This document shows, in pieces, positions 49,972-64,000 of a stretch of DNA of 64,000 bases. Below the pieces are notes generated by a model. The model was not told where the DNA came from. It saw only the letters and a program-made list of their open reading frames with translations, and did no database searches. Made by a program: the position numbers and the translations under genes. The first letter of the stretch is position 1. Each line of letters begins with the position of its first letter. This stretch comes from an uncultured Clostridia bacterium. GTDB taxonomy: Bacteria > Bacillota > Clostridia > Oscillospirales > Acutalibacteraceae. The stretch is from contig CANQFC010000001.1 of the NCBI GenBank assembly GCA_947598155.1, positions 248,001-312,000 of the forward strand. Reading direction: 5' to 3'.

Positions 49972-50115
49972 AAACACGGGCGAGGAAAAAGTTGGGATAT
50001 GCTTACAGAAAATGAACAGCAAAGAGTTGTAGAATCAGCTCCGGATTGGGATAAAAGATATTTCTTTTATGCGCTTAATGATGGTAAAGAAACTGCAATT
50101 GACATACTTCCTTAG
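49972..50115 (+). pseudogene. Orphan C-terminal fragment
   Basis: The frame of the previous gene continues past its TGA as KHGRGKSWDMLTENEQQRVV, then ESAPDWDKRYFFYALNDGKE and TAIDILP, ending at TAG 50113. The codons look genuine but no start or ribosome binding site was seen. Likely the tail of a lost gene. Confidence 0.45.
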
Positions 50116-50126
50116 GAGGATTTTCC

Positions 50127-50936
50127 ATGAGAAATAAAATTTTTAATGTATTTACTGTACTTGCTATAATCCTTTCAGTATGTGTAGTTGTATATGGTGC
50201 AATTGAAATAAAAAAGTTGAAAGACCCCAACAGCATTGAATCTTTTATTGCTGTTTATGAAAATGAACCAAACAATCGTCATCTTATAGGTTTATGCAAT
50301 AAATTAAGTATCGAGAAGGACAAAAGACTTTTTAAGTACTTTGATGATTTTATAAATATGGAAAATTTTGATACGGAGGTAAGAAACAGCGAAAAAAAGA
50401 GTATGACTGATACCGAAATAGACTTTTATCACGATTTGATGATTACATATGCTTTTGAAACATGTGCTAAGAATAATGACATAGATTTGTTTGCAGAGAT
50501 AATGCTTAAATATTATCCTCAGATACGTGATAAAGATAAGCTCTTTTATCTTTCTTTAGCAAATGACGGTAGCACTGAGTCAACAGAGTTTTTTAAAGCT
50601 AACTCTGAAAAAATATTAAACGTTTTGGAAGAATTATATGCAACGGACGATAATCCAAAATTAAAACTGCGGTATCTTATGGAAATAGAAACATATTATT
50701 CCTGTGATGAGATTAAAAACATTAAGCCTTATAAAGAAAAACATAATGATGAACTTGCACAGTTGATTAAGGATTGCGGCTTTGATTCTGATATGGAAAA
50801 GGTGTCTGTGCTATCTGCCTATTTTAAGTCGTATTGGGAGCATTTGATTACAGGTAAGGACAACGATGGTTGGAATTCAGCTTTAAATGAAACAATGGTT
50901 AAATATGATAACTTTGACACCTACGTGATCAATTGA
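50127..50936 (+). CDS. Membrane-anchored helical protein, immunity-like (family 2)
   Basis: 269 residues from ATG 50127 after TAGGAGG. One N-terminal membrane helix (IFNVFTVLAIILSVCVVVYG) then a helical, acidic domain with TPR-like spacing (LMITYAFETCAKNNDIDLFA, KLFYLSLANDGSTESTEFFK). It resembles its neighbour at 49309 in architecture. Not recognised as a named family. Confidence 0.65.
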   Translation: MRNKIFNVFTVLAIILSVCVVVYGAIEIKKLKDPNSIESFIAVYENEPNNRHLIGLCNKLSIEKDKRLFKYFDDFINMENFDTEVRNSEKKSMTDTEIDFYHDLMITYAFETCAKNNDIDLFAEIMLKYYPQIRDKDKLFYLSLANDGSTESTEFFKANSEKILNVLEELYATDDNPKLKLRYLMEIETYYSCDEIKNIKPYKEKHNDELAQLIKDCGFDSDMEKVSVLSAYFKSYWEHLITGKDNDGWNSALNETMVKYDNFDTYVIN

Positions 50937-51063
50937 TGTAGAGTATGGGTGTATGTTATGGGATAATGGTGGTGTGTAATGAAAAAAGATTGTTATATTG
51001 TAGATCGTGTCAGTATCTATTGATAACAACAACTTTAGAACTTAATGGACATATGAGTAATTG

Positions 51064-51156
51064 AAAAATTAAATCAAAAAGCGTTACAGTCGCTTTTGAT
51101 AGGCTTGTCCTGCGCTCACCGCCTTTTGGCACAGGACAAGCTGAAAACAGCACAGT
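51064..51156 (+). repeat. 105 bp hairpin repeat, copy 2
   Basis: Same body as copy 1 (AAAAAGCGTTACAGTCGCTT, GCTTGTCCTG...CAGGACAAGC). Its right end runs into Rhs coding sequence at CACAGTAACGGAATTGCGAC; the in-frame TGA at 51142 is contributed by the repeat. 50937-51063 holds no convincing gene. Confidence 0.85.
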
Positions 51157-51627
51157 AACGGAATTGCGACAGAATATTTTCTTGACGGCAGTGCAATAAT
51201 TGCCGAAAAGACCGGAAATGACGTAAAATGGTACTACTATGACGGAGACGGAACAAGAGAAGCCATAGAGTACAAGGGCAATGTTTACTACTATTTCTAC
51301 AACGCTCAGGGCGATGTAATGGGCTTGTACGACAATAACCTAAATGTTGTTGTCAATTACACTTACGACTCTTGGGGTAATGTTGTAAGTATAACAGGCT
51401 CACTTGCAAAAACTCTCGGTCAGGATAACCCGTTCAGATACAGGGGATATTACTTTGATTCTGACACTGGACTTTACTACCTCAACAGCAGATATTATGA
51501 TGCAAATACGGGCAGATTTATCAATGCTGACGGCTTAGTTCAAACAGGTCAAGGCTTGCTCGATAAGAATATGTTTGCGTATTGCATGAATAATCCTATT
51601 TTATATCAATATCGGAGGTTTGGTAAT
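51145..51627 (+). pseudogene. Rhs C-terminal core, 5'-truncated by the repeat
   Basis: From just after TGA 51142 the frame reads SNGIATEYFLDGSAIIAEKT, WYYYDGDGTREAIEYKGN, YTYDSWGNVV, NPFRYRGYYFDSDTGLYYLN, SRYYDANTGRFINADG and YCMNNPI. This is the invariant end of an Rhs/YD-repeat core, after which a variable toxin normally starts. Here no toxin follows; the frame runs straight into the next gene. The N-terminal thousand or more residues are missing. Confidence 0.88.
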
Positions 51628-52191
51628 ATGAAATTAGGTAAAAGCAATATTGTGTTGTCGATAGTAATCTCACTACTGTTAATAATCATATCAGCAATAG
51701 TATATAAAGACTTTTCATACCGCTACGGCGATAAAAATAAAGGCTCTTTAACCATAAACGAAAATACAAGCGATAAGCCGAATAATACTGATGCTAATTC
51801 CAAACTACAAAATTATACAGTTGCAGTTGATTTAGACAAAGAGTATAGTCGTAGATTATCAAACGCAAAATCCAATACGGAAATTACCGAAATAAATTCA
51901 GAATTTGCAGATAAATGGAAAAACGAAATAGATACAAATTATCAAAAGCTTTTAACGATTGCTGAGAAATCCTTTAGAGAAAAACTGATTATATCACAAG
52001 CAGAATGGTATATATATGCAAAAAAATATATTGATGAAAGATATGAATATTTATTGGAAGAGTACCAAACCGGTACAACGGTACCTATCATAATATCGGA
52101 ATTTGAGTGTAATTTATATCGTGAACGAGCGATTGAGCTTTTTGAAATGTATAATAAATTAAATGAACTGCATAGTTCTGTAATTGACTGA
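51628..52191 (+). CDS. Membrane-anchored DUF1311/LprI-like protein
   Basis: 187 residues from ATG 51628 with CGGAGG at eight bases, although the upstream Rhs frame is open into it. One membrane helix (IVLSIVISLLLIIISAIVY), an Asn/Asp/Ser linker, then a C-terminal domain with the lysozyme-inhibitor LprI N-terminal pattern: YQKLLTIAEKSFREKLIISQ, AEWYIYAKKYIDER, GTTVPIIISEFECNLYRERA, IELFEMY. The first Cys of the usual pair is absent. It may be an immunity or inhibitor protein that became fused to an Rhs tail after loss of the toxin. Confidence 0.65.
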   Translation: MKLGKSNIVLSIVISLLLIIISAIVYKDFSYRYGDKNKGSLTINENTSDKPNNTDANSKLQNYTVAVDLDKEYSRRLSNAKSNTEITEINSEFADKWKNEIDTNYQKLLTIAEKSFREKLIISQAEWYIYAKKYIDERYEYLLEEYQTGTTVPIIISEFECNLYRERAIELFEMYNKLNELHSSVID

Positions 52192-52245
52192 ATATCTTGT
52201 AAAATTATATAAAGACAGATAAAGGTAAGACAAGGATAAGACCAG

Positions 52246-52352
52246 TAACGGTTCTGCGATAAAAAATTAAATCAAAATGCGTTACAGTCGCTTTTTGATA
52301 GGCTTGTCCTGTGCTAACCGCCTTTTTGCACAGGACAAGCTGAAAACAGCAA
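52246..52352 (+). repeat. 105 bp hairpin repeat, copy 3
   Basis: AACGGTTCTGCGATAAAAAA, then the same two stems with a few substitutions (GCTTGTCCTGTGCTAACCGC ... CACAGGACAAGC). The right edge is AAAGTAACAGAGTTGCAACG, still resembling the Rhs junction of copy 2 before diverging. Confidence 0.85.
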
Positions 52353-52384
52353 AGTAACAGAGTTGCAACGGACTTAATTAACTG

Positions 52385-52447
52385 TTTATACATTACGCAA
52401 GATGTCCCGCCTCTATATATGGCGGGTTACATTTTGCCTAAGTTATA
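52385..52447. repeat. Dispersed element, two-ended hairpin copy
   Basis: Left TTATACATTACGCAAGATGT, stem CCCGCC 52406-52411 / GGCGGG 52421-52426, right ATTTTGCCTAAGTTAT. It carries left-end modules facing each other, making a palindrome. Confidence 0.65.
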
Positions 52448-52517
52448 AAGTTCAAATTTTGCGCTGTATAAAACAAAGAAAGAGAAAAATCCGGCAAAAG
52501 ATATATCCGCCGTTACA

Positions 52518-53312
52518 ATGCAGCTTGACTGTTTGCAGAACATAGCAGATCTTTGGACAAAAGGCGTTTCGAATTCAATGAATGAGCTTGAAAAGTATGT
52601 AAAGTCCGAAACTGCGGACAGTAATCCAAATCAAAACTTTGAAACAGACAATGAACGGGTATATAATAGTAAAAAATATGCAAAGTCACTATTTAAAGAT
52701 GGAGTATTTCCAAGTTACAAAGAATCTAATGGAAGCGATGCTAATACAGAATCTACATTGTGGGCATCAGCGGAAGATGTAAATCAGGTAGACTGGAGAC
52801 TGCAAAGTTATAAGGGCTCATGGTATATAATTGAAAAATTTGATGATACATCATTTGGGTATCAAGTAACTGGAAAAGTACCTAAAAAGAAATATAGTTA
52901 CTATGCATCAGAATGGGAGAAGCAGTATGGACAAAGATTTGAAAAATCAATGGAAGACAGCGAGAACTCAATTGATAATATCTATAGGAGAACAAATTGG
53001 GATAGAGAAAGAGCAACAAATCTTGATGATGATGTCACTCAATACTCCAGAAAAAATTTATCAGTTCAACGAATGGGCAAAAGCGAGAACAGAGAACAAC
53101 AAAATCAACTCAACACCGAACAGAGTTCTTTCAGCGGCGACGAGAATAGGCAGAGGAATGAAACCTCTGGATTAGAGGAAAAATCTGAGAGTGAAAAATT
53201 CTCAGTAAAAACAGTCCCAAATAACAGGCAATTACTGTCGCAGACTCTTGTATTAAATTGTGAGACTAATGCGCTTAATAAACAGCAATTTATGCGTATC
53301 AGCAAGCAATAG
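52518..53312 (+). CDS. Hypothetical protein of the accessory patch (possible toxin or element remnant)
   Basis: Up to 264 residues from ATG 52518. No good ribosome binding site was seen, and coding-like sequence seems to extend upstream (KNPAKDISAVT), so the 5' end may be lost. The first ~140 residues look like a folded domain (NSKKYAKSLFKDGVFPSYKE, DVNQVDWRLQSYKGSWYIIE, FGYQVTGKVPKKKYSYYASE). The rest is Gln/Asn/Glu/Ser-rich and overlaps the 52927 gene in another frame; KFSVKT near the end recalls element-encoded polyvalent proteins. Not recognised with confidence. Confidence 0.4.
   Translation: MQLDCLQNIADLWTKGVSNSMNELEKYVKSETADSNPNQNFETDNERVYNSKKYAKSLFKDGVFPSYKESNGSDANTESTLWASAEDVNQVDWRLQSYKGSWYIIEKFDDTSFGYQVTGKVPKKKYSYYASEWEKQYGQRFEKSMEDSENSIDNIYRRTNWDRERATNLDDDVTQYSRKNLSVQRMGKSENREQQNQLNTEQSSFSGDENRQRNETSGLEEKSESEKFSVKTVPNNRQLLSQTLVLNCETNALNKQQFMRISKQ
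52927..53175 (+). CDS. Small helical protein, accessory
   Basis: 82 residues from ATG 52927, behind GGGAGAAGCAGT. Sequence MDKDLKNQWKTARTQLIISI, GEQIGIEKEQQILMMMSLNT, PEKIYQFNEWAKARTENNKI, then NSTPNRVLSAATRIGRG. It has a balanced hydrophobic pattern, unlike the overlapping frame, and resembles small proteins carried on Clostridial mobile elements. It overlaps the second half of the 52518 frame, so one of the two is probably not translated there, or they are a toxin/partner pair. Function unknown. Confidence 0.5.
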   Translation: MDKDLKNQWKTARTQLIISIGEQIGIEKEQQILMMMSLNTPEKIYQFNEWAKARTENNKINSTPNRVLSAATRIGRGMKPLD

Positions 53313-53363
53313 AGCGTAAATTTGCCAAAGTACGGAATATAGGAAATTTACATAAAATGTGTA

Positions 53364-53411
53364 TTGACATTTTGTAAATCGGTTGATATAATAAACATAC
53401 TAAAAGTATGT
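53364..53411 (+). promoter_or_regulatory. Promoter and operator of the TetR/transporter unit
   Basis: TTGACA 53364-53369, 17 bases, TATAAT 53387-53392: perfect consensus. The palindrome ACATACTAAAAGTATGT (53395-53411) covers the start site. Confidence 0.88.
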
Positions 53412-53422
53412 ATGGGTGAATT

Positions 53423-54085
53423 ATGGCAAGAAATAAATATCCCGAAGAAACGGTAAATCTGATACTTGACACGGCACAGAGGCTTTTTATTGAAAAAGGC
53501 TATGAGCACACAACCGTTCAAGATATAATTGACAATTTAGGCGGTCTTACAAAAGGCGCAATTTATCATCATTTCAAATCAAAGGAAGATATTTTGAACG
53601 CTGTTATCGAAAGGCTTTTCCGTGAAAATACGCTTTCTGCAAAGTGGAATAAAATTGCAAAAGATGAGAATATGAACGGCGCAGAAAAACTCAAGGCATT
53701 GCTTTATGAAGCTATTGTTGATGAGCAGGAACAGACCTTCAGGAGTATGGGAATACATTTTCAGAATATGCCTCAGATGTTAAGCGACTTGGTTTTAAGG
53801 TCTGTTAATGACATTGCGCCACAAGCAATAAAGCCTGTTTTGGAACAGGGAATACAGGACGGCTCAATTAAAGTCCCATTTGCAAAAGAACTCTCTGAGG
53901 TTATATCATTACTTGCAAACGTATGGTTTAATCCGCTTGTATTTCCGATGACAGACGACGACCTTAATAAAAAATGTCAGTTGATTTTGGGTATGATGTC
54001 AATGCTTGGCGTTGATGTAACGGATATTTATCCTGCTGTTTACAATATGAACAGGCAAATAAATGAAAGGGAAAGCAGAAAATAA
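53423..54085 (+). CDS. TetR-family regulator of a sugar transporter
   Basis: 220 residues from ATG 53423. N-terminal HTH in LILDTAQRLFIEKGYEHTTV, QDIIDNLGGLTKGAIYHHFK, SKEDILNAV, typical TetR/AcrR. The ligand domain is helical with no diagnostic motif. The palindrome at its own promoter recurs twice before the transporter gene, so it probably represses both itself and the transporter and releases on binding a substrate of that transporter. Confidence 0.92.
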   Translation: MARNKYPEETVNLILDTAQRLFIEKGYEHTTVQDIIDNLGGLTKGAIYHHFKSKEDILNAVIERLFRENTLSAKWNKIAKDENMNGAEKLKALLYEAIVDEQEQTFRSMGIHFQNMPQMLSDLVLRSVNDIAPQAIKPVLEQGIQDGSIKVPFAKELSEVISLLANVWFNPLVFPMTDDDLNKKCQLILGMMSMLGVDVTDIYPAVYNMNRQINERESRK

Positions 54086-54121
54086 AAATTGTCGCTCGGC
54101 GGCAATTTATTTTGAAAATAT

Positions 54122-54194
54122 ACATACTAAAAGTATGCGAGCAAGCCGTTTTATGCGGCAATATATTTTGCTTAGATACATACTAAAAGTATGT
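54122..54194 (+). promoter_or_regulatory. Two further TetR operators before the transporter
   Basis: ACATACTAAAAGTATGC (54122-54138) and ACATACTAAAAGTATGT (54178-54194), 56 bp apart and nearly identical to the operator at 53395. A possible promoter between them is TTTATG, 17 bases, TAGATA. Confidence 0.85.
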
Positions 54195-54212
54195 ATTGAA
54201 AGGAGCATAATA

Positions 54213-55613
54213 ATGAAAACAAAATTAACAACCGAAAAAACACGCTGGCTTTTAGGCTTGTCGGGGCAGAATATTCTTTATGCGCTTGTGTCGTCACTAT
54301 TTGCATACTACTTGCAGTTTACTGTTCTCATTCCTGCCTTGCCGCTCGGAATTATATTAAGCACAGCGAGAATATTTGATGCAGTAAAAGAACCGTTCAT
54401 AGGTGCATACATAAATAAAGGGAAATGGACTTTGCAGAAATATCTTTATTATCTGCCGATACCGACTGCAACAGTTACGGCGCTCTGTTTTACAATGAAG
54501 ATATATTCAGCCGAAAACAGCAATTTTCAAAATGTTTCAATTATAATATACGCCTTCATTATATTTATTTTGTGGGAAATAATTTTTTCATTCGGCGATA
54601 TACCTATGATAAGCTACCCTAATGTGATTTGCAGTGATGAGAAAGGCCGTACAAAGCTCTTGTCGTTAAGACCTGTGGGAGGAATGGTTTGCAGTATATG
54701 CTGTCTGATTTTTCAGCCCCTTGCCTTTGCAATGTCGGATTTTTTCGGCGGCACACAGAAAGATGAAAGAAACGCATTTTTTATAATTGCGTTGATATTC
54801 TCTGCCGTAGGATGTATTCTTTATCAGGCAACAGTACCGAAAAAGAGACTCAAATATTATTGCGAAAACAAATCTGATACGAAAAATCAGTACAAATATA
54901 TTTTAACAAATCCGCTTTTAAAGAAAATAATCGTTTCGGGACTGCTCTCTTCCATGAGTTCTTTGCAGGGCGTTGTAATGGCCGCTTTGGTAGCTTTCTA
55001 CTTTTCAAGCAAAAATTCGGGACTTACATTTCTTTATACGTTTCTGCTAGGCACAGGCAGTTTTATAGGACTTATGCTTTCGGCGGTTTTTGTGCCTGTC
55101 CTTTCAGAAAGATTCGGAAATATAAAGGCGTATATTTTGTGTAACCTTGCATCCATTTTGCCGAATATCCTTATTTTCATTATTTATCTGAACAACAAAA
55201 CTACAATGAACAGCTTTGCAAATTTTTCTGCAATGTTTATTTTGATGTTGGCGGAAGGGGGCTTTGTAAGCTTTGCTTCAAGCATTCGCACACTTCTTAT
55301 TAACGATGCAGTTGAGCTTGAAAGACAGTTTTCGGGTAATACGCCGACGGCCTTGTTTTTCTCTTTTCAAACGGCAATAATAAAAATTCAAACAGGTGTA
55401 TCTTCACTGATTTCAAGTCTGGGGTATGCGATAATCGGCTTTACAAGTGAAAAAACGGCGTTGCTTAACGACTATATAGCACAGGGCTTTATCGCAAGAG
55501 AAAGCAGTGAATATACGCGGCTGTTCACAATGCTATTTTTTATGTTTACCGTTCTTCCTGCGGTCAGCTCATTTCTTGCGGTAATACCGTTTGCTAAAAT
55601 ACATAAATTGTAA
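54213..55613 (+). CDS. GPH-family (MelB-like) sugar:cation symporter
   Basis: 466 residues from ATG 54213 after AAAGGAG; the frame extends 50 codons further upstream through the operators and that part is not coding. Twelve membrane segments, with STARIFDAVKEPFIGAYINK matching the GPH/MelB signature (D in helix 2, cation site) and a loop GRTKLLSLRP. It probably imports a glycoside or exports a compound under the linked TetR regulator; TetR control is unusual for MelB-like carriers and hints at an efflux role. Confidence 0.85.
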   Translation: MKTKLTTEKTRWLLGLSGQNILYALVSSLFAYYLQFTVLIPALPLGIILSTARIFDAVKEPFIGAYINKGKWTLQKYLYYLPIPTATVTALCFTMKIYSAENSNFQNVSIIIYAFIIFILWEIIFSFGDIPMISYPNVICSDEKGRTKLLSLRPVGGMVCSICCLIFQPLAFAMSDFFGGTQKDERNAFFIIALIFSAVGCILYQATVPKKRLKYYCENKSDTKNQYKYILTNPLLKKIIVSGLLSSMSSLQGVVMAALVAFYFSSKNSGLTFLYTFLLGTGSFIGLMLSAVFVPVLSERFGNIKAYILCNLASILPNILIFIIYLNNKTTMNSFANFSAMFILMLAEGGFVSFASSIRTLLINDAVELERQFSGNTPTALFFSFQTAIIKIQTGVSSLISSLGYAIIGFTSEKTALLNDYIAQGFIARESSEYTRLFTMLFFMFTVLPAVSSFLAVIPFAKIHKL

Positions 55614-55632
55614 CTCTCACTGATTACAAAAA

Positions 55633-55682
55633 CGGAACCCGCCGCCTTTATAGGCGGCGGGACATCTCTTGTCTGAGTTATA
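55633..55682. repeat. Dispersed element with perfect hairpin, converging genes
   Basis: CCCGCCGCC 55638-55646 and GGCGGCGGG 55653-55661, then ACATCTCTTGTCTGAGTTAT, the left-end module reversed. It sits between converging genes and can also act as a terminator. Confidence 0.65.
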
Positions 55683-58208
55683 TCAGCTGTACGCAGGCGC
55701 AATAGTTACGCTCGCAACATTCGGCGCGTATGCGGTCATATTATTAAACTTACTCTCGCCGTTATTCGTAAAGGTTACCGTGTTCTCGCCCTCGTTAAGC
55801 ACAATATTGGCGGTAACGGTTTTGAAATTTTCAATGCTTTGTGTGTTGCGGAACCATACGTTGCGGCTTTCACCGTTTACTCCTACGGTCAGGTAACATT
55901 CAATTAAATCGACATTGTAATCGTGTAATCCGCCCTCACGGTTGTTGGAATACAGAATAGTCATTCTGTAACTGCCTGATTTTGGAACTGTTATCTTAAA
56001 TTCCGCTTTGCCTGCGTCGGAGGATATTGAGTTAACATATTCCGTTTCGCCGACACGGCTTATCTTCGCGCCGTCGGAAAGTGTCATATCAGAAGGCTTA
56101 ACGCTAAAGCTTTCGGCCTCCTTAGCCTCGGTTTTAATAATACACGAGGCGCAGTTCTTATCCAAAACCTCGATATAATTAAGTCCTCTGCGAAGATAAA
56201 CCGTCGCTGTTCCGTTTTCATCAGCCTTGCACGGCGCTTTATCAAGCAGGAAATCCGCATTTGCGGTAATATTTATTGTATAAAAGCCGTCATAGGGCGC
56301 AACAGCTAAAAATGCGGAGGTGTTCTCATTGCTCCTGTCGCTGTCGGGAAGAATAGATATTTCACTTTGCTCCGCTTTAGGATAAACAAGCACACTGTCA
56401 AGAACATACGTCCCTTGGGAGTACTTAAATGTGATTTCATGCTCACCCGCTGAAAGTTCGGCGGTAAGCGTCAGACAGCTTGTAAATTCGCTTTTCACCG
56501 TATTTTTAAATTTAACCGTCTGTTCCTCGCCGTCGATGCCGAAAAGCGCCTCGGCGCTCACTCTGTCATTCGGCGTACTGCCGTCATTCCACTTACCGTA
56601 AATAATATCCAAATTATACGTTCCGTCGCTCGGCGCATTAACTTTTATGCTTACGCCGTCGCCGATTTTTTCAATTCCTCCGACCATACCCTCGGTCTGC
56701 CCCGTTGTTGCGTATGCGCTGTCATAGGTATAGGCTTTGCCTAAAAGAGCGCCGTCCTCAAACTCATATCTTACGGGAAGAGACTCGTTTTCATAGCTTT
56801 TCTTTTCCACACCGTCTGATTTTTTTACGGTTATTCTGTAAACTGATGAAGTGTCAGCGCAGTCAACCTTTATTTTCATTGAATTGCCGACCTTTTTAGT
56901 GTATTCCTTTACTACGGTCGGAGCAGATACAACGCCGCTCAATCCCTTATAGTAAACGCACTCGATTTTAACATTAACATTCCCGTCGGAAAGCTCGGTT
57001 GCGTCAAGATTTTTAAGCTTTATATTGCTTTCATAATCACAGCCGCCTACTATTACGGTGATTTCGTCCTTGCTGTCATTAACGCAGGTTACGGCGTCTA
57101 ACGGGACATAGTGAAAGCGGTCTCTGTTATACTTAACCACATTTGCGACGTCCGAATGGAAAATATCAATTACCTTTGAGTCAAGGCGCTTGCCCTGCAT
57201 ATCGGCATACCACCTGTAAAGCCACCAGTTAGCATTAGGCGAATTATCGTCGGCGGCAGTATCGCAGAGATTATTTGCAAGCCGCCAGAAAGCAACGTTC
57301 CCGTATATCCCCGTTTTTTCCATAGCCGTTATGTAGTGAATCATTTTTCCGGGATTTCCGCACTCCTCCATTGTACCGTATTCGGTAACGATTATCGGAA
57401 GGCAAACGCCGTATTTCTTTTCTGCCTCTCTGTACTCTTCGGTATGATCCTCTAAAAACGCCGAGGAGCTTGCGCTCAATTCATGATATATCATAACATC
57501 AGGCATACAGTCGTTTTCACTGCAGAAATCCATAAACGAGGTAAGCTTTTCTATGTTGTATTCAAAGTAACCCGGACCGCCGATTTTTGCATCGGGGTCA
57601 ATTTTCCTTACGGCGTCATACGTCTTTTTCCATGCATTGTAAAAATTCTTCCTGCCCTCGTCGTTGAACTGCGGATTTCCGTCTGTATCCTCAGCACCGA
57701 ACCAGACAGCGTTATCACATTCGTTATAAAGGCAGTAAACAACCCTGTCCCGATAGTCTGTTTCACAGATGCTTTTAACCTGATTTATAACCTGGGGCAT
57801 AAACCGTTCGTCTAAAAAGCTCTCCCAATCATAATTTCCCGCTCTGCGAAGTTCCTCTATTTCCTCATGGGCGTAGTACCAAGTGTCAAAACAGTCCTGA
57901 AGATATACTACTATATAGTCGCACGAGTCGAGGTTTGGCGCAACATCGTTTACATCGCCGATAGGGTGCTGTAAACCGCCGTAGGTCTTTTGAGATTCCG
58001 ATGAAATATCAAGGCTTTCGACCATTTCGGCAGACGGCACACCCTCGGTGGCAAGTCCGTAAAGAAAGCCCGTAGCCCTCGTTGTCATATCACCTGTTTC
58101 AACGGAGCAATCTATTTCAACTGTGGGCTTAAACGCATATTTTACGCCCGGAAGAATAAGTCCTATTACGGTAATAATGCTCATAATAAAAGAACCGATT
58201 TTTAACAT
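55683..58208 (-). CDS. Secreted clan GH-A glycosidase with carbohydrate-binding modules
   Basis: 841 residues from ATG 58208 after GGGG. An N-terminal hydrophobic signal/anchor (FIMSIITVIGLILPG) is followed by a GH39/GH5-like TIM barrel. The acid/base is likely Glu163 in YCLYNECDN and the nucleophile Glu276 in IIVTEYGTM; GGPGYFEY and YHEL match strand motifs of clan GH-A. After residue ~460 come two beta-sandwiches of CBM6/35 type (RYEFEDGALLGKA...DSVLVYP and ESFSVKPSDMTLSDGA...). It probably cleaves a plant or host glycan at the surface. The transporter upstream on the same strand likely imports its product. Confidence 0.82.
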   Translation of the reverse strand: MLKIGSFIMSIITVIGLILPGVKYAFKPTVEIDCSVETGDMTTRATGFLYGLATEGVPSAEMVESLDISSESQKTYGGLQHPIGDVNDVAPNLDSCDYIVVYLQDCFDTWYYAHEEIEELRRAGNYDWESFLDERFMPQVINQVKSICETDYRDRVVYCLYNECDNAVWFGAEDTDGNPQFNDEGRKNFYNAWKKTYDAVRKIDPDAKIGGPGYFEYNIEKLTSFMDFCSENDCMPDVMIYHELSASSSAFLEDHTEEYREAEKKYGVCLPIIVTEYGTMEECGNPGKMIHYITAMEKTGIYGNVAFWRLANNLCDTAADDNSPNANWWLYRWYADMQGKRLDSKVIDIFHSDVANVVKYNRDRFHYVPLDAVTCVNDSKDEITVIVGGCDYESNIKLKNLDATELSDGNVNVKIECVYYKGLSGVVSAPTVVKEYTKKVGNSMKIKVDCADTSSVYRITVKKSDGVEKKSYENESLPVRYEFEDGALLGKAYTYDSAYATTGQTEGMVGGIEKIGDGVSIKVNAPSDGTYNLDIIYGKWNDGSTPNDRVSAEALFGIDGEEQTVKFKNTVKSEFTSCLTLTAELSAGEHEITFKYSQGTYVLDSVLVYPKAEQSEISILPDSDRSNENTSAFLAVAPYDGFYTINITANADFLLDKAPCKADENGTATVYLRRGLNYIEVLDKNCASCIIKTEAKEAESFSVKPSDMTLSDGAKISRVGETEYVNSISSDAGKAEFKITVPKSGSYRMTILYSNNREGGLHDYNVDLIECYLTVGVNGESRNVWFRNTQSIENFKTVTANIVLNEGENTVTFTNNGESKFNNMTAYAPNVASVTIAPAYS

Positions 58209-58296
58209 TTGCCTAACCCCTTTTATACAATGTAAAATACTGTACCGTCATTTTGTATCCGTTAATATTTTAATACACCTTCCGTGTTTAAACAAT

Positions 58297-58342
58297 GGCA
58301 AGTTTAGGCGGTATAATGACGGGGCAAGCCCCTTATTGAAAA
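58297..58342 (+). repeat. Dispersed element copy in the transporter-glycosidase spacer
   Basis: GGCAAGTTTAGGCGGTATAA then TGACGGGGCAAGCCCCTTAT and TGAAAA. The right-end module is identical to that at 11449. Confidence 0.7.
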
Positions 58343-58385
58343 GACCTCTGAAACGGCCTTCTTCAGATGCTAAAACCCGTTTTTT

Positions 58386-59783
58386 TTATTTCGTATCATC
58401 TTTATGACTGTACTTTTTAATTCCTTCTGTAACCTTTTTATCATTATATACAATAAATAAAATTAAGGAAATCAGGCTGAATACACCTGCATATACTCCT
58501 GTGAGCTTAACGCCCTTCATACCGACAGATTCGCCGCTTGCAGCGCCTATTGCCAATACGCTTGATACAACTATCATGGCAATACTGACTGCTATTTTTT
58601 CAAGGAATGTTTTAACTGCTGAGAAAATGCCCTCTCTGTTAACTCCGCTTTCTAAACAGTCCAATTGAATAATATCAGAAATAACAGACTGCGGAAGAAT
58701 GTTGATAGCGGCAAACGGGAATGCAACCAATATTCCGACTCCGATACCGATTATCAATTCATGCCCTGCGAATAATGCGGCAACTTTATCACCAATATAA
58801 ATGAATGCAAATACTAAGGTGAAGATGGCGCTTGCTATGATTAGCGGGATTTTTTTGTTATATTTTCTTGAAATCATAACAATAAGCGGGAACAGACAAA
58901 TTGCAGTCACGATTGCTGACAGAAGAACATAAAATACTTGGCTTTCTTCAATATTTAACAGCATAGTGATATAGTACAGCATTGCAGTTTCAAAAAAGCA
59001 CAACGAAATAAAGCTAAACAAATCTCCAAGACTGAAAATTACAAAGTTACGGTTTTTTAAAACTAAACCAAAGGATTTAAGTAAAGAATCATTCGGCTTT
59101 GTGCTGTTATGTACATAGTCCTTCTCATTGAAAGCATAAGCGCTGAGCAAAAGGCAAATTATACCGATTGCAACAAATACAGTGAATACTGCACGCCATG
59201 CCCATAACGGCGACAGGCCTGCATTCTTCAGCAGATTTACAAACAATGTCGCGGCATACATAAAGGCGCTTGAGCCCATAAAGAATACTGTGCTGACAGT
59301 GTAGTATCCGACACGCACATTGGCGTCGGGAATAATTTCAGGAACAAGCGCATTGCGAGGAATGAAAAAGAATGTATATGCAACATAATAGGTGACAAGG
59401 AAAAATCCGACCCAAATTGCGTTGCCCACGGAGCCCTCTTTAAACGGCGCATAAAAAATCAGTAACAGCGAAAGGGCATAAGGAAGGGCAGAAAATCGCA
59501 AAAACGGCATACGCCTGCCGTCCTTGTGGTTGCATTTGTCCGAAAGAGTTGCAACCAACGGATCTGTAACGGCATCAACAACTTTACTGATACCTGTAAT
59601 TAGTGCCATAACTGTAATAAATCCTAATAATTTGTTTTGCGGTAATAAATTAGGCAATCCGCTTTTTACTGTGGGCTGAAAAAAATACAGCAGGTAATTG
59701 CCTATCATACCGTTAAAAAGCCCCTTGGCAATATCCGCTAAACAATAGCGGTACATTTTTCTTTTGGGCAATGCTTGTGACAT
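58386..59783 (-). CDS. GPH-family sugar transporter paired with the glycosidase
   Basis: 465 residues from ATG 59783, nine bases after GAAGGAG; an ATG seven codons upstream overlaps that site. Twelve membrane segments. ISKVVDAVTDPLVATLSDKC and KDGRRMPFLRFSALPYAL match the GPH signature (Asp pair and RxxP loop). It should import an oligosaccharide or glycoside with a cation. It lies 177 bp ahead of the glycosidase on the same strand, a common sugar-utilisation pair. Confidence 0.9.
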   Translation of the reverse strand: MSQALPKRKMYRYCLADIAKGLFNGMIGNYLLYFFQPTVKSGLPNLLPQNKLLGFITVMALITGISKVVDAVTDPLVATLSDKCNHKDGRRMPFLRFSALPYALSLLLIFYAPFKEGSVGNAIWVGFFLVTYYVAYTFFFIPRNALVPEIIPDANVRVGYYTVSTVFFMGSSAFMYAATLFVNLLKNAGLSPLWAWRAVFTVFVAIGIICLLLSAYAFNEKDYVHNSTKPNDSLLKSFGLVLKNRNFVIFSLGDLFSFISLCFFETAMLYYITMLLNIEESQVFYVLLSAIVTAICLFPLIVMISRKYNKKIPLIIASAIFTLVFAFIYIGDKVAALFAGHELIIGIGVGILVAFPFAAINILPQSVISDIIQLDCLESGVNREGIFSAVKTFLEKIAVSIAMIVVSSVLAIGAASGESVGMKGVKLTGVYAGVFSLISLILFIVYNDKKVTEGIKKYSHKDDTK

Positions 59784-59815
59784 GGTAAATTTCTCCTTCA
59801 TCATTTTATATAGCT

Positions 59816-59844
59816 AATATACCATATTTTTTTAAAAAGTACAA
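59816..59844 (-). promoter_or_regulatory. Promoter of the transporter-glycosidase unit
   Basis: Minus strand TTGTAC, 17 bases, TATATT, about 33 bp before the start codon. Confidence 0.65.
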
Positions 59845-59850
59845 ATTATT

Positions 59851-59895
59851 TATAATTTAGGCAAAAAAAGTCCCCGCCGCAAAAGCGGCGAGGAC
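59851..59895 (-). repeat. Dispersed element / terminator-like hairpin
   Basis: TATAATTTAGGCAA then GTCCCCGCCGC 59870-59880 and GCGGCGAGGAC 59885-59895 around AAAA, with a T7 tract when read on the minus strand. It combines the left-end module with an intrinsic terminator, shielding the transporter promoter from upstream minus-strand transcription. Confidence 0.7.
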
Positions 59896-60397
59896 AGATT
59901 TGGCAGGGGACAGAAGGACTTGAAGTTGCTTTGCAACCCCTCTTGCGGTGCCCTACGACGCGCGGCTTGGAGTGGATGTTGAAAGGGGAAACCCTTTGAT
60001 ATGATTGGCTTTGTTGAGCCTTTTGCTGCTGTTTTACCATAAGACCGCGTTCCGTTTGATGCTTTTTTGATGCTATGAAATCTTTTCCGCTTACTATATA
60101 ATAAACGCTGACAATTTGATGCTGTAAAAGTCTCAAAAGCTCAATAATTGTGCCGCAGCAAACAAAGAAAGGAGTGACGTAGATGTTCAACATAAAATGA
60201 CGGAGTCAGAGTAACTAAATTACTTTTTGAAACGCACTGTTTTAAGCCATATTTTCACTTTTAGGTCTCTCAAAAATCTTAGGTAAAATATTTTAACTTG
60301 ACTTTTAGAATTTTATTCTCCGAGGTAAATGCGATAAATAATATTAAACACACTTTCTTTTAACATTATTTTAATAATACGCTTATTCGGCAGCAGT
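59896..60397. other. Spacer without a convincing gene
   Basis: About 500 bp. A minus-strand frame of 115 codons crosses the hairpin and has no protein-like character. It contains GCGGTGCCCTACGACGCGC, a near copy of the 47578 block, and looks like worn mobile-element DNA. Confidence 0.5.
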
Positions 60398-60424
60398 TTG
60401 TCAATACTATTGCTGAGGTGTATT

Positions 60425-60958
60425 ATGAAAGATATATTGAAATACGCAGGGCTACTGCTGCTCGGTTTATTTGTCGCGGTTATCGGCTATCCGTTATTAC
60501 ACGAAACGGGACATTGGATTACTGCAATTTTATTTGGGGCAGAGGTTACGGATTTTAAACTGTTTCCGTTACCATATGTTATATGTAAAACGCCGATTGA
60601 TAACAAGGCGAGCTTTGTTTTCATAGGTCTTTCTGGACTGTATCTGCCTGCGGTATTATCGTTAATAATCCGACCTAAATCCTTCTGGCTTTGGTACGGC
60701 AATTTAATTGTCAACGGGATTTGCCTGTTATCGTTTATAATATCGCTTGCATCTGTTATTTTGTATAGCTTTGGCATTACCGTTGCCAATGAAGATGTCA
60801 TTCAGATTTTAATGCTATGCGGTAAGGGCAGTATTGCTCTTGCTATATCTGCAATTTTTGCAATAGCCGTTATGTCTTATTCAATAATAAAGCAAAAACC
60901 TATAAACAGAATTATAAATTATTTTGAAATACCTATAAATAAAGCGAGTGCAGAATAA
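60425..60958 (+). CDS. Small membrane zinc-metalloprotease-like protein (M50-type HExxH)
   Basis: 177 residues from ATG 60425 with GAGGTG five bases upstream; an earlier in-frame start at 60398 lies before that site. Four or five membrane segments. HETGHW near residue 24 fits the HExxH zinc motif of site-2 protease (M50) families, at the end of the first helix as expected. A second metal ligand (NxxPxxxxDG or similar) is not clear, so it may be a minimal or non-catalytic relative. It lies just left of the invertible segment. Confidence 0.65.
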   Translation: MKDILKYAGLLLLGLFVAVIGYPLLHETGHWITAILFGAEVTDFKLFPLPYVICKTPIDNKASFVFIGLSGLYLPAVLSLIIRPKSFWLWYGNLIVNGICLLSFIISLASVILYSFGITVANEDVIQILMLCGKGSIALAISAIFAIAVMSYSIIKQKPINRIINYFEIPINKASAE

Positions 60959-60978
60959 TAAACTGCATTCGCTTTATT
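60942..60978 (+). terminator. Terminator after the M50-like gene
   Basis: AAAGCGAGTGCAG and CTGCATTCGCTTT pair with one mismatch, followed by ATTTTCGC. Confidence 0.75.
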
Positions 60979-61000
60979 TTCGCTTATTATATGAAAAAAT

Positions 61001-61037
61001 AAAACTGCTTTCACGTTTGGAAAGCAGTTTTATTTTT
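61001..61037. terminator. Bidirectional terminator abutting the left inverted repeat
   Basis: A perfect 12 bp stem AAAACTGCTTTC / GAAAGCAGTTTT with a seven-base loop. T tracts lie on both strands (ATTTTT to the right; TTTTATTTTTTC on the minus strand). In the present orientation it meets the outward promoter at 61097 within about 60 bases. Confidence 0.88.
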
Positions 61038-61055
61038 CGTAGAACTAACAGTTCT
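61034..61055. repeat. Left inverted repeat of the invertible segment
   Basis: TTTTCGTAGAACTAACAG then TTCT, 22 bp, the exact reverse complement of 62442-62463. It contains the internal dyad TAGAACT-AAC-AGTTCTA expected of a tyrosine recombinase core site. Confidence 0.9.
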
Positions 61056-61096
61056 AAAATATAAAAAGTGACAAATTAAGACATTATTTTTTATAT

Positions 61097-61125
61097 ATTA
61101 TAACAGCAAAACGTCTATATGTCAA
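61097..61125 (-). promoter_or_regulatory. Perfect outward-facing promoter inside the invertible segment
   Basis: On the minus strand TTGACA (61125-61120), 17 bases, TATAAT (61102-61097). It points left through the inverted repeat towards a terminator, with no minus-strand gene to serve. After inversion it would read rightwards into the protease at 62565. Confidence 0.88.
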
Positions 61126-61256
61126 TAAAACAAATATAAATTTTGCGGCGTTTTGCCGAGAAAGCGTGAAATTGTTTTTTAAAAAACTGCAATTTATAAT
61201 TATTTATGGTCTGATAATTGGTCAGAATAGTTTTTTAAAGGAAAGGAGTTGCATTT

Positions 61257-62372
61257 ATGCCAAGAAGAGGTGATAACATACACAAAAGAAAGGACGGTCG
61301 TTGGGAAGGAAGGTACAGGGACGGATATAAAAATGATGGAACAGTAAAATACAGCTCCGTGTATGCTTCCACATATTCAGAATGTAAGGCTAAGCTGGAA
61401 TTTTTGAAAAGCAGTTTGCCGAATGCGGTCAAATCAAAGGATATGAAATTTTCAGAGATAACAGCGTTATGGACGGAATCTAACAGGGTGAGATTAAAGG
61501 GCTCTACTCAGGCAAAATATCAGAATATTATAGATACGCATATTCTTCCTTCGCTTGGCGGATTAAAGATGTCTGAAATCAATTCTGTTACCGTAAACAG
61601 CTTTTTGGACAATAAAATTAACAGCGGAGGGATACGGTACGGTGAAAAGCTGTCAGCTTCATATGTAAGAACAATGGCAATCATAACAGAAGCGATTATT
61701 AAATTTGCTGTTGCCGAGGGCTGGTGCGCGCCGTTAAAAACGCCTATTCACAAACCCGCCGCTGCCCAAAGCAACCCCACTGTATTAAGCAAAGAGGTTG
61801 AACTCAGACTGTTAAATGCTTTACAAAATGAGCAAAGCAGTGCATCAGTAGGCACTTTACTTGCATTAAATACCGGTATGCGAATAGGAGAGGTATGCGC
61901 ATTGCAATGGGACGATGTGGATTTTAAAAACAATGTCATTCACGTAAGACACACCGTAGCCAGAGTGAGCGGTAACAGCATTAAGCAGAAAACAAAACTG
62001 ATACTTGATACGCCTAAGACTTTATCGTCTCAAAGAGAAATTCCCATATCTGATGCTTTAAAAAGAGTTATGCTCAAGGCGTATGCAAACAGCAATTCAG
62101 GTTTTGTAATCTCAAAAAACAATAATTTTATTGGCACAAGAACCTTTGATTATCAGTACAGGAATATGTTAAAAGCGCACAATCTGCCTGTAATGAATTT
62201 TCATATTTTGCGTCACACCTTTGCCACACGGTGTGCAGAATCGGGCATGGATGCCAAAACGCTGAGCCGTTTATTGGGTCATGCTTCCGCAAATATATCT
62301 TTGAATGTATATGTGCATCCGTCCATAGATACTATGAAAAAACAGCTTGATTCACTGTACACTTCTGCTTAA
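61257..62372 (+). CDS. Tyrosine recombinase (integrase/invertase) inside inverted repeats
   Basis: 371 residues; ATG is at 61257 behind AAAGGAG. N-terminal AP2-like arm-binding segment (IHKRKDGRWEGRYRDGYKND), SAM-like core-binding domain (~65-160), then the catalytic domain with Arg209 (NTGMRIGEVCAL), a Lys near 254, His316 and Arg319 (NFHILRHTFATRC), His342 (LLGHAS) and nucleophile Tyr352 (LNVYVHPS). All catalytic residues are present. No excisionase, relaxase or other mobility gene accompanies it. The flanking 22 bp inverted repeats and outward promoter suggest that it inverts its own segment. Confidence 0.93.
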   Translation: MPRRGDNIHKRKDGRWEGRYRDGYKNDGTVKYSSVYASTYSECKAKLEFLKSSLPNAVKSKDMKFSEITALWTESNRVRLKGSTQAKYQNIIDTHILPSLGGLKMSEINSVTVNSFLDNKINSGGIRYGEKLSASYVRTMAIITEAIIKFAVAEGWCAPLKTPIHKPAAAQSNPTVLSKEVELRLLNALQNEQSSASVGTLLALNTGMRIGEVCALQWDDVDFKNNVIHVRHTVARVSGNSIKQKTKLILDTPKTLSSQREIPISDALKRVMLKAYANSNSGFVISKNNNFIGTRTFDYQYRNMLKAHNLPVMNFHILRHTFATRCAESGMDAKTLSRLLGHASANISLNVYVHPSIDTMKKQLDSLYTSA

Positions 62373-62441
62373 AATGGTCAAAATTATGGTCCAAGGAACA
62401 CAAAAGCCTATACACATAAATACGCCGACTGTCTTTTTAAC

Positions 62442-62463
62442 AGAACTGTTAGTTCTACGAAAA
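62442..62463. repeat. Right inverted repeat of the invertible segment
   Basis: AGAACTGTTAGTTCTACG then AAAA. Perfect inverse of 61034-61055. It lies 101 bp before the protease start codon; no convincing promoter was seen between them. Confidence 0.9.
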
Positions 62464-62564
62464 TAATATTTTTAGCAAAACTGTCTGTAATTATTCGCGT
62501 AAAGATGTGAACGGTAATTTGCCGATTACATATAAAAACAAATTCAATGCAGAGGAGTAAAAAA

Positions 62565-64000
62565 ATGAAAATTAAAGAAACAAAGAGACGCCGATTTATC
62601 AGTCGTGTTATCGCAATTGTAATGGCATTTTGTCTTATGTTCAGCGCAGTCATTACCGTAAATGCGGCGGAGGCTAACGAGCGTGTGCATGACGCAAAAA
62701 GCGGCGTTGTTCAGATTCAGGTTTGGTTTTATGATGTAGAAGCCGCACATGAAGAGTTTGTGCACTCGGGAACAGGTTTCCTTATCAATGAAAATACGAT
62801 TGTTACATGTCAGCATGTAGCTAACGGCTATTCAGATGAAGAGTATTTATACTGGACTCAGATGATAAATGAAGCTTTAGGCGGAAACCGCACTGTTGCT
62901 GAGGTTAAAGATAAGTTAGAGTTGCGCGTAAGTGTTTACCGCGATGTTTATGTTAAAGCCACAGTTAAAAAGGCAAGTACCGAAATGGACTATGCAGTTC
63001 TGACCTTAAACGAGCCCATCAAAGACCGCGTTCCGTTAAAACTCCGCGACAGTTCAACACTCCGTCAGACAGAGGATGTTTTTGCATTAGGTTTTCCTGG
63101 AGAAATGGTAAATCTTGAGAACGCCAAGTATTACGATGTTTCATCTGTTGAAATCACCGGCGGCAAGGTAAATAGAATCGCCGATATGAGCTTTGATGTC
63201 AAAGACAGTTACGGGGAAATAACCGGCCGTTATAACAGTGTAAACTGTGTTGAACACGGCGCAATTATTTCAGGCGGCAATTCAGGCGGCCCGTTGGTTG
63301 ATGCTGACGGCAATGTTGTCGGTATTAATGCGGTGGGCAGCAACACGCGAAATATTGCAATCGCCAGTAAACAGCTTATTGATGTATTAGATGCGCTCGG
63401 AATCTCTTATACATCGGCAGATGCTCAACCGTCTGAATCACCTTCGGAAAATGTCAGCAGTGAAGCGCCGCAAGTGGATACAGGCAGACTGTCAGGATTG
63501 ATTACAGATGCAGAAGCTGTGAATGCTAATGATTACAGCGAAGAGTCATACAAAAATCTTAAAAATGCTATCACAGCGGCTAAATCTGCTTTAACCTCCG
63601 ACTCACAAAGCGAAATTGACAAAGCAGCATCAGAGCTTAAAAATGCAATTGACGCATTAGAAAATAATAAAGCAAAATCTCCTATGGGGAAATACGGTCT
63701 GATTATTGTAATTGCTCTGGTTGCAGTTGCAATTATAGCGGTGGTAATCGTTCTTGTTGTTCTCGGAAAGAAAAAGTCAAAGCCTCAGGCGGCGCAGGCA
63801 GTTCCTGCTTCTGCACCCGTGGTTCAAGCTCCCGCTTCGAAGCCTGTTGCTTCTGCAAAGCCCGCAGCGCCTGCATCTTCGGAAACTACGGTTCTTTCAC
63901 AGGGCTCAAGCGAGACAACCGTTCTTTCGCAGGGAGCAGGGGAAACTACTGTTCTTTCTCAGAATGTACATGGCGGTACTCTGGTGCGTTTAAGCAATAA
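62565..64000 (+). CDS. Membrane-anchored trypsin-like serine protease, C-terminus cut by window edge
   Basis: 478 codons are visible from ATG 62565 after AGAGGAG. Signal-anchor ISRVIAIVMAFCLMFSAVIT. HtrA/trypsin-fold triad: His84 in VTCQHV, Asp142 in MDYAVL, Ser240 in GGNSGGPLV. A FIVAR-like helical hairpin (~308-367) and a membrane helix near 378-400 follow, then a Pro/Ala-rich cytoplasmic linker with three tandem ETTVLSQ motifs and GGTLVRLSN at the edge. Such Thr-rich ETTVL motifs precede FHA domains in some actinobacterial and Firmicute proteins; an FHA domain beyond the edge is a prediction. Expression would depend on the inversion state of the upstream segment. Confidence 0.87.
   Translation, partial: MKIKETKRRRFISRVIAIVMAFCLMFSAVITVNAAEANERVHDAKSGVVQIQVWFYDVEAAHEEFVHSGTGFLINENTIVTCQHVANGYSDEEYLYWTQMINEALGGNRTVAEVKDKLELRVSVYRDVYVKATVKKASTEMDYAVLTLNEPIKDRVPLKLRDSSTLRQTEDVFALGFPGEMVNLENAKYYDVSSVEITGGKVNRIADMSFDVKDSYGEITGRYNSVNCVEHGAIISGGNSGGPLVDADGNVVGINAVGSNTRNIAIASKQLIDVLDALGISYTSADAQPSESPSENVSSEAPQVDTGRLSGLITDAEAVNANDYSEESYKNLKNAITAAKSALTSDSQSEIDKAASELKNAIDALENNKAKSPMGKYGLIIVIALVAVAIIAVVIVLVVLGKKKSKPQAAQAVPASAPVVQAPASKPVASAKPAAPASSETTVLSQGSSETTVLSQGAGETTVLSQNVHGGTLVRLSN

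Follow-up and report, generated by a model that had tools for sequence, protein, structure and literature searches.

What does a lone tyrosine recombinase gene do between two perfect inverted repeats, a short way ahead of a protease gene? The question is raised by the right-hand end of a 64,000-nt stretch of DNA (the window) from an uncultured Clostridia bacterium of the Acutalibacteraceae (GCA_947598155.1, contig CANQFC010000001.1, positions 248,001-312,000 of the forward strand). We consider it very probable that the locus is an autonomous invertible promoter cassette, in which the inner recombinase turns a segment of 1,430 bp and a promoter within it faces either a terminator-like hairpin (OFF, as in this assembly) or a protease operon (ON). 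The anatomy of the cassette, the recurrence of its layout in a family of relatives, the occurrence of orthologous loci in both orientations between species and the position of the breakpoints at the repeats are all directly seen.

Repeats, promoters and recombinase in the window

The features of the locus, in window coordinates, are as follows.

60995-61037, both strands: bidirectional intrinsic-terminator-like hairpin with an 18-bp perfect stem and a 7-nt loop, overlapping the left repeat by 4 nt
61034-61055, plus strand: left inverted repeat (IRL), TTTTCGTAGAA-CTAACAG-TTCT, read as outer arm, putative 7-bp overlap region and start of the inner arm
61097-61125, minus strand: outward consensus promoter, TTGACA-N17-TATAAT with TG ahead of the -10, pointing left through IRL
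61172-61200, plus strand: candidate recombinase promoter, TTGTTT-N17-TATAAT, with a weak -35 and a perfect -10, proposed from its sequence
61207-61223, plus strand: 5' arm-like direct repeat pair, TGGTC-N7-TGGTC, 50 bp ahead of the recombinase start
61257-62372, plus strand: tyrosine recombinase of 371 aa, with a predicted N-terminal domain (three strands and a helix), core-binding domain and catalytic domain
62375-62391, plus strand: 3' arm-like direct repeat pair, TGGTC-N7-TGGTC, immediately past the recombinase stop
62442-62463, minus strand: right inverted repeat (IRR), identical to IRL over 22 nt when inverted
62565-64000, plus strand, continuing past the window: target protease, trypsin-like, secreted or membrane, with a FIVAR-like region (Pfam match below cut-off) and an FHA domain beyond the window end

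The first-pass annotation of this DNA had described two perfect 22-bp inverted repeats around 1,430 bp, and a repeat search and an in-silico inversion agree on both the repeats and the segment. With up to 3 mismatches these are the only two copies in the window (0 in 100 shuffles), and the 18-nt core, also with up to 3 mismatches, occurs in the 2.14-Mb genome only at these two repeats, the reversed-pattern control giving 1 match. The assignment of parts within IRL rests on the symmetry of the core over 248 sites from 124 cassettes of the family discussed below.

The outward promoter, reported earlier as perfect and as facing the left repeat, does match the sigma-70 consensus at 12/12 positions on the minus strand, reading from 61125 to 61097. 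At present it fires left into the hairpin, which the annotation had called a perfect bidirectional terminator and which folds well on both strands (stem halves 60995-61012 and 61020-61037; folding z -8.9 on the minus strand and -8.2 on the plus strand). The protease, which starts at 62565 and thus 101 bp past the right repeat as had been stated, was also said to have no obvious promoter. This stands, as plus-strand promoter-like matches in 60900-62700 reach 9/12, and such matches on both strands number 8 against a shuffled mean of 6.8. In-silico inversion leaves the repeats unchanged and moves the outward promoter to 165 bp before the protease ATG, close to the 170 bp or so that had been predicted.

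The segment contains one complete tyrosine recombinase gene, as the annotation had it, on the evidence of the open reading frame and of matches to PF00589 and PF14659. Residues R209, K254, H316, R319, H342 and Y352 are invariant in 21/21 aligned recombinases, and we take their catalytic roles to be those of the familiar motif; the protein thus has the RKHRH set and nucleophilic tyrosine of the IntTn916 type. In the structure model there are strands at 8-10, 16-24 and 30-37 and a helix at 40-53, followed by core-binding and catalytic domains like those of Tn1549 Int, and the predicted N-terminal domain has the three strands and one helix that are characteristic of the IntTn916 type. The best match in the PDB for both fold and sequence is Tn1549 Int (6emy/6emz/6en0). 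On the model, then, the recombinase is an integrase of the arm-binding Tn916/Tn1549 type.

The paired TGGTC repeats are candidates for the arms. Pairs of GTC spaced at 12-13 bp on the recombinase strand are present on the 5' side in 92 and on the 3' side in 86 of the 124 cassettes, the corresponding figures being 2 and 1 on the reverse strand and 3.4 and 3.7 as means of shuffled sequence. The 3' arm lies at a median of 62 bp from the edge of IRR (10-90% range 57-69, n=86). The N-terminal domain probably binds these paired repeats, and the remainder of the protein the cores.

In the mechanism that we propose, the recombinase would act on the two core sites, whose inverted arrangement would make the outcome a reversal of all 1,430 bp and not their excision. 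As each core has its arms on the inner side only, the ends would resemble half-armed attL/attR sites set head to head, and because substrate and product would be alike in layout the reaction should be reversible. In the OFF state the promoter would be directed toward the left hairpin, and in the ON state, some 165 bp from the protease start codon, it would face an operon for the protease, a PP2C phosphatase, a kinase and a surface protein. The candidate recombinase promoter is inside the segment, so expression of the recombinase should be independent of orientation, and the 5' arms are just past that promoter, so arm binding could repress the gene. We would not retain the earlier suggestion that carriage of the recombinase inside the segment could bias its own switching, as the candidate promoter would turn along with the segment and the outward promoter points away from the gene. 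It is the role of the recombinase in inversion, arm binding, the effects on transcription and switching within a strain that we infer here.

Orientation of the cassette across species

A search for the cassette in both orientations in related genomes had been proposed with the original annotation, and both are found, between species. The association of cassette and protease is present in three genera of one family (the window, G1050 and G413). In G1050 (locus L346) the recombinase (62%), core repeat, 12/12 promoter and protease are in the same order as in the window, with which the locus is collinear at 66.8% over 1,958 bp, and this is the OFF layout. In G413 (locus L068) there are again a recombinase (63%), repeats, a 12/12 promoter and a protease (49% over 503 aa), and here the protease adjoins the promoter end of the cassette at a distance of 89 bp from the repeat, which is the flipped, ON layout. 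When L346 and L068 are aligned with each other, the protease side matches at 75.4% over 5,833 bp on the minus strand and the cassette at 72.5% on the plus strand. In both loci the protease side starts to align right beside the repeat, at 1933 in L346 (repeat 1934-1948) and at 5953 in L068 (repeat 5932-5952). The cassette is inverted, between species, at the orthologue of the window locus. In an unrelated pair, L100 and L197, both flanks are swapped, up to the repeats. These orthologous loci, together with the repeats that flank relatives of the recombinase and the lack of a tRNA gene nearby, bear out the original reading of an invertible switch that is OFF in this assembly.

With regard to the extent of the search, relatives of P0002 in 398 genomes of the family gave 6 matches at 1e-40, the window's own included. 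Four same-family homologue loci were fetched, of which L346 has the cassette; L347, L348 and L349 have no recombinase match, and L349 has two inverted repeats of score 14 that are untied to a recombinase. Of the 39 genomes of the genus, none of the 38 besides the window's own has a match to the protease at 1e-20. The transporter beside the cassette has matches in 11/39 genomes of the genus, again including the window's own, and in a search for an empty site nothing beyond the transporter aligned in four fetched genomes, where contig ends limited the view.

A transposon with terminal inverted repeats that lands upstream of genes would also have inverted-repeat ends, and there are in the family an identical cassette in several genomes and several related cassettes in some genomes, as such an element might give. 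However the enzyme has all the catalytic residues of a tyrosine recombinase and is no DDE transposase, no target-site duplication can be seen by eye at the outer edges, and the cassette and protease have stayed together in three genera. We regard a transposon as extremely unlikely.

The cassette family and the genes beside it

Relatives of the recombinase were sought in the genus, order and class, in named genomes (best 80 of 568) and in viral contigs (best 80 of 436); 9/12 plasmid records were included, and 7 phage records and 3/12 plasmid records were left out. This gave 228 loci with usable flanks, and duplicates were kept in the counts by bit score. Flanking inverted repeats with a score of at least 14 are present in 141/167 loci at 200 bits or more, in 4/38 at 150-200 bits and in 0/23 below 150 bits, so that the repeats are kept among the closer relatives of the recombinase, a check that had been named beforehand. 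The low-bit relatives are themselves the control for this relaxed score, which has no shuffle control of its own. Exact inverted repeats of at least 14 bp are found in 49/64 loci and in 4/1,280 shuffles. Another count of arm repeats was made on 55/61 loci (60 and the window), with L103, L113 and L119 dropped for weak or transposon-like repeats and L102, L114 and L115 having no repeats. For the non-redundant set the transposon-like L119 was dropped and 144/145 loci kept, which removal of 90%-identical copies reduced to 124 cassettes.

An outward promoter of at least 11/12 is present in 66/122 cassettes (two with short 5' gaps were left out), against 4/122 for inward promoters, 4 and 5 of 121 for the outer flanks and 9/1,220 for shuffles. 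The median gap is 195 bp on the 5' side of the gene and 70 bp on the 3' side, and there are terminators in the 3' gap of 25/114 cassettes where 3.4 would be expected. In 4/124 loci the repeat occurs a third time when up to 4 mismatches are allowed. In a quick FastTree tree of 109 recombinases (64 of the 124 repeat-bearing rows and 45 sampled rows without repeats) the repeat label changes 13 times, compared with 34.9 when shuffled, and the window recombinase belongs to a starred group of 12 rows, every one with repeats. A 21-nt exact repeat was not found in the viral contigs, and a single-protein scan there yielded no confirmed relative.

A division into two cassette architectures was considered and rejected, as a single layout remained once the loci were turned to match in strand. 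Among 31 loci in which relatives have no flanking repeats there is one clear case, L187, of a promoter-only inverted pair beside the gene. The pair is short, about 140 bp apart, and lies downstream of the gene at 1275-1458 relative to the recombinase start; it may be an inverton that holds just a promoter and is turned by an enzyme of this family. Two genomes, G316 and G380, have several related cassettes each (L321, L322 and L324-L326), with the repeat motif reversed and shorter 5' gaps, and these may be a sub-lineage that has multiplied within genomes.

These counts bear on whether the locus is a dead or degraded integrative element, with an ordinary integrase of a phage or of an integrative and conjugative element (ICE) and with the inverted repeats as remnant ends. 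The closest protein in the PDB is Tn1549 Int, and in PMC8138268 this type is tied to phage or ICE mobility. Against this, the recombinase is the sole gene in the segment, and no tRNA gene is present in 50000-64000 of the window, where the use of a tRNA-type attachment site had been put forward as the alternative that would speak against a switch. The non-redundant cassettes with flanking repeats number 124 and adjoin a wide variety of genes, and between orthologous loci the repeats mark the points of inversion. We think a degraded element very improbable.

For the nearest outward gene within 250 bp, the 124 cassettes divide into left only (ON) 20, right only (OFF) 68, both 18 and neither 18. 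It might be argued from the 18 with outward genes on both sides that the cassette is invertible and mainly targets two divergent neighbours, or the recombinase itself, with the protease incidental at the present locus. However the window's left neighbour reads toward the cassette and is set apart from it by two hairpins, and the protease adjoins the cassette in all three genera, so that this too seems a very unlikely account. Sixteen target families, counting outward genes within 250 bp, are common to at least two cassettes, and 7 of them are seen in either orientation; L100/L197 accounts for two of these 7, one for each flank.

Several observations weigh against an invertible promoter cassette as we describe it. 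The opposite orientations stem from different species, and no same-species copies in opposite orientation were found among the Enterococcus raffinosus plasmid records or among identical copies, those linked to Erm(B) being always in one orientation. The 16 close pairs listed with repeats in both members are mutually dependent, and only L100/L197 is opposite among them; likewise 9/16 target families are seen in one orientation only. No flanking repeat of score 14 is present in 26/167 relatives at 200 bits or more, and a promoter of at least 11/12 is missing in 56/122 cassettes. A terminator scan of 60900-62700 listed no terminator, the left hairpin included, which we attribute to absorption of the T-run in the stem. 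There is also no terminator between recombinase and protease in the window cassette, by folding (z 0.27) or by the scan, and the OFF state may therefore leak. With regard to the N-terminal domain, sequence search gave a weak AP2 match in 5/17 (best 4e-4), and a PDB search with this domain matched no integrase domain; the solved Tn1549 chains begin at residue 82, and it is therefore not tested by them.

Known systems, the target operon and other neighbours

The RecV switches of C. difficile, and fimS with FimB/FimE, are like our cassette in that a promoter bounded by short inverted repeats, ahead of surface genes, is turned by a tyrosine recombinase. They differ in that the recombinase gene is outside the segment and the recombinases are not known to have an arm-binding domain. 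The H segment of Salmonella is inverted by Hin, a serine recombinase with a Fis-bound enhancer, and its outward promoter drives a neighbouring operon. It resembles the cassette in having recombinase gene and outward promoter both inside the inverted segment, with the neighbouring operon driven, and differs from it in that the cassette has a tyrosine recombinase of the Phage_integrase family and arm-like repeats in place of a serine recombinase and Fis-bound enhancer. PMC5903667 places the Hin gene within the invertible segment. Neither promoter inversion as such nor carriage of the recombinase gene within the segment that it inverts, as with Hin, is new.

A 2025 survey in Microbiome (PMC11892184) links Clostridia inverton group 139 statistically to invertase group 35, of tyrosine-type recombinase/integrases, and group 35 is possibly the same enzyme family as the cassette recombinase. 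In one group-139 example given there with coordinates, from Clostridium sp. D5, there are about 205 bp between repeats, and therefore no recombinase gene fits. The IntTn916 subgroup and Tn1549 Int have the same domain order as the cassette recombinase, with three strands and a helix at the N-terminus (PDB 6emy/6emz/6en0, and PMC8138268). They integrate and excise mobile elements, whereas the cassette has its cores inverted and only the recombinase between them. Cassettes with the recombinase inside and with arm-like sites were not described in the literature searched, most subscription papers being outside our reach. What is new is a recurrent cassette whose putative motor, an integrase of arm-binding type, has arm-like sites of its own that keep conserved distances from the cores.

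We give an even chance to a wider proposal, that a large Tn916-type arm-binding integrase lineage left mobility and now drives portable inversion cassettes, having gone from excision to reversible promoter inversion. Throughout Clostridia the cassettes would have been recruited before protease-FHA, signal-peptidase, TadZ, FHA-FtsK, LytTR and TnpB-like genes, the last of which seem to be nuclease-dead. Enterococci have relatives of these cassettes, and the rate of flipping may be set by arm binding over the gene's own start region. If our reading is right, many Clostridia genes labelled only as site-specific integrase would be self-contained phase-variation switches. The signature of core, arm pairs and outward promoter would also predict switched surface and secretion genes. 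PMC8138268 treats the arm-binding domain as a strong predictor of phage or ICE function, and the cassette would be an exception. The 1.4-kb unit is compact enough for testing in a laboratory strain.

The protease is the first gene of a same-strand row that extends beyond the window (L297:4566-15746 in the extended locus), being followed by a PP2C phosphatase, a Ser/Thr kinase (PknB-like), two small proteins and a 1,979-aa protein with bacterial Ig-like (Big) domains. It carries a membrane segment, and ahead of the FHA domain there are three ETTVLSQ motifs that could be phospho-threonine sites for that domain. Judged from these sequences, the row resembles a relay of threonine phosphorylation that would serve a surface system.

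Among the targets elsewhere in the family are genes for a SipW-like signal peptidase, for TadZ together with a TadA-like ATPase, for an FHA-FtsK ATPase and for regulators of the LytTR and TetR kinds. The row of genes past the cassette in Enterococcus raffinosus encodes hypothetical proteins and signal peptidases, and in E. gilvus there are WxL genes beyond a recombinase whose flanking repeat is weak (score 12). Carriers in culture include Ruminococcus flavefaciens FD-1 (L159). The E. raffinosus plasmid loci L129 and L130 are 99.7% identical over the cassette and right side, and their left flanks diverge from about 230 bp outside the left repeat. An identical cassette is present in L085, L086, L088, L166 and L167, which include Butyricicoccus pullicaecorum and Blautia glucerasea; in L085 there is a helix-turn-helix regulator-like gene 134 bp past one repeat and Erm(B) 450 bp past the other. 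TnpB-like proteins adjoin three cassettes (L126:4185-5525, L181:5867-7273 and L215:4274-5623), on sides that differ among the loci. That of L215 was assigned by a match to NCBIfam guided_TnpB below cut-off, and those of L126 and L181 by homology to L215. Their RuvC acidic residues look by eye to have been replaced, and the proteins may have lost nuclease activity and serve as RNA-guided regulators whose promoter flips.

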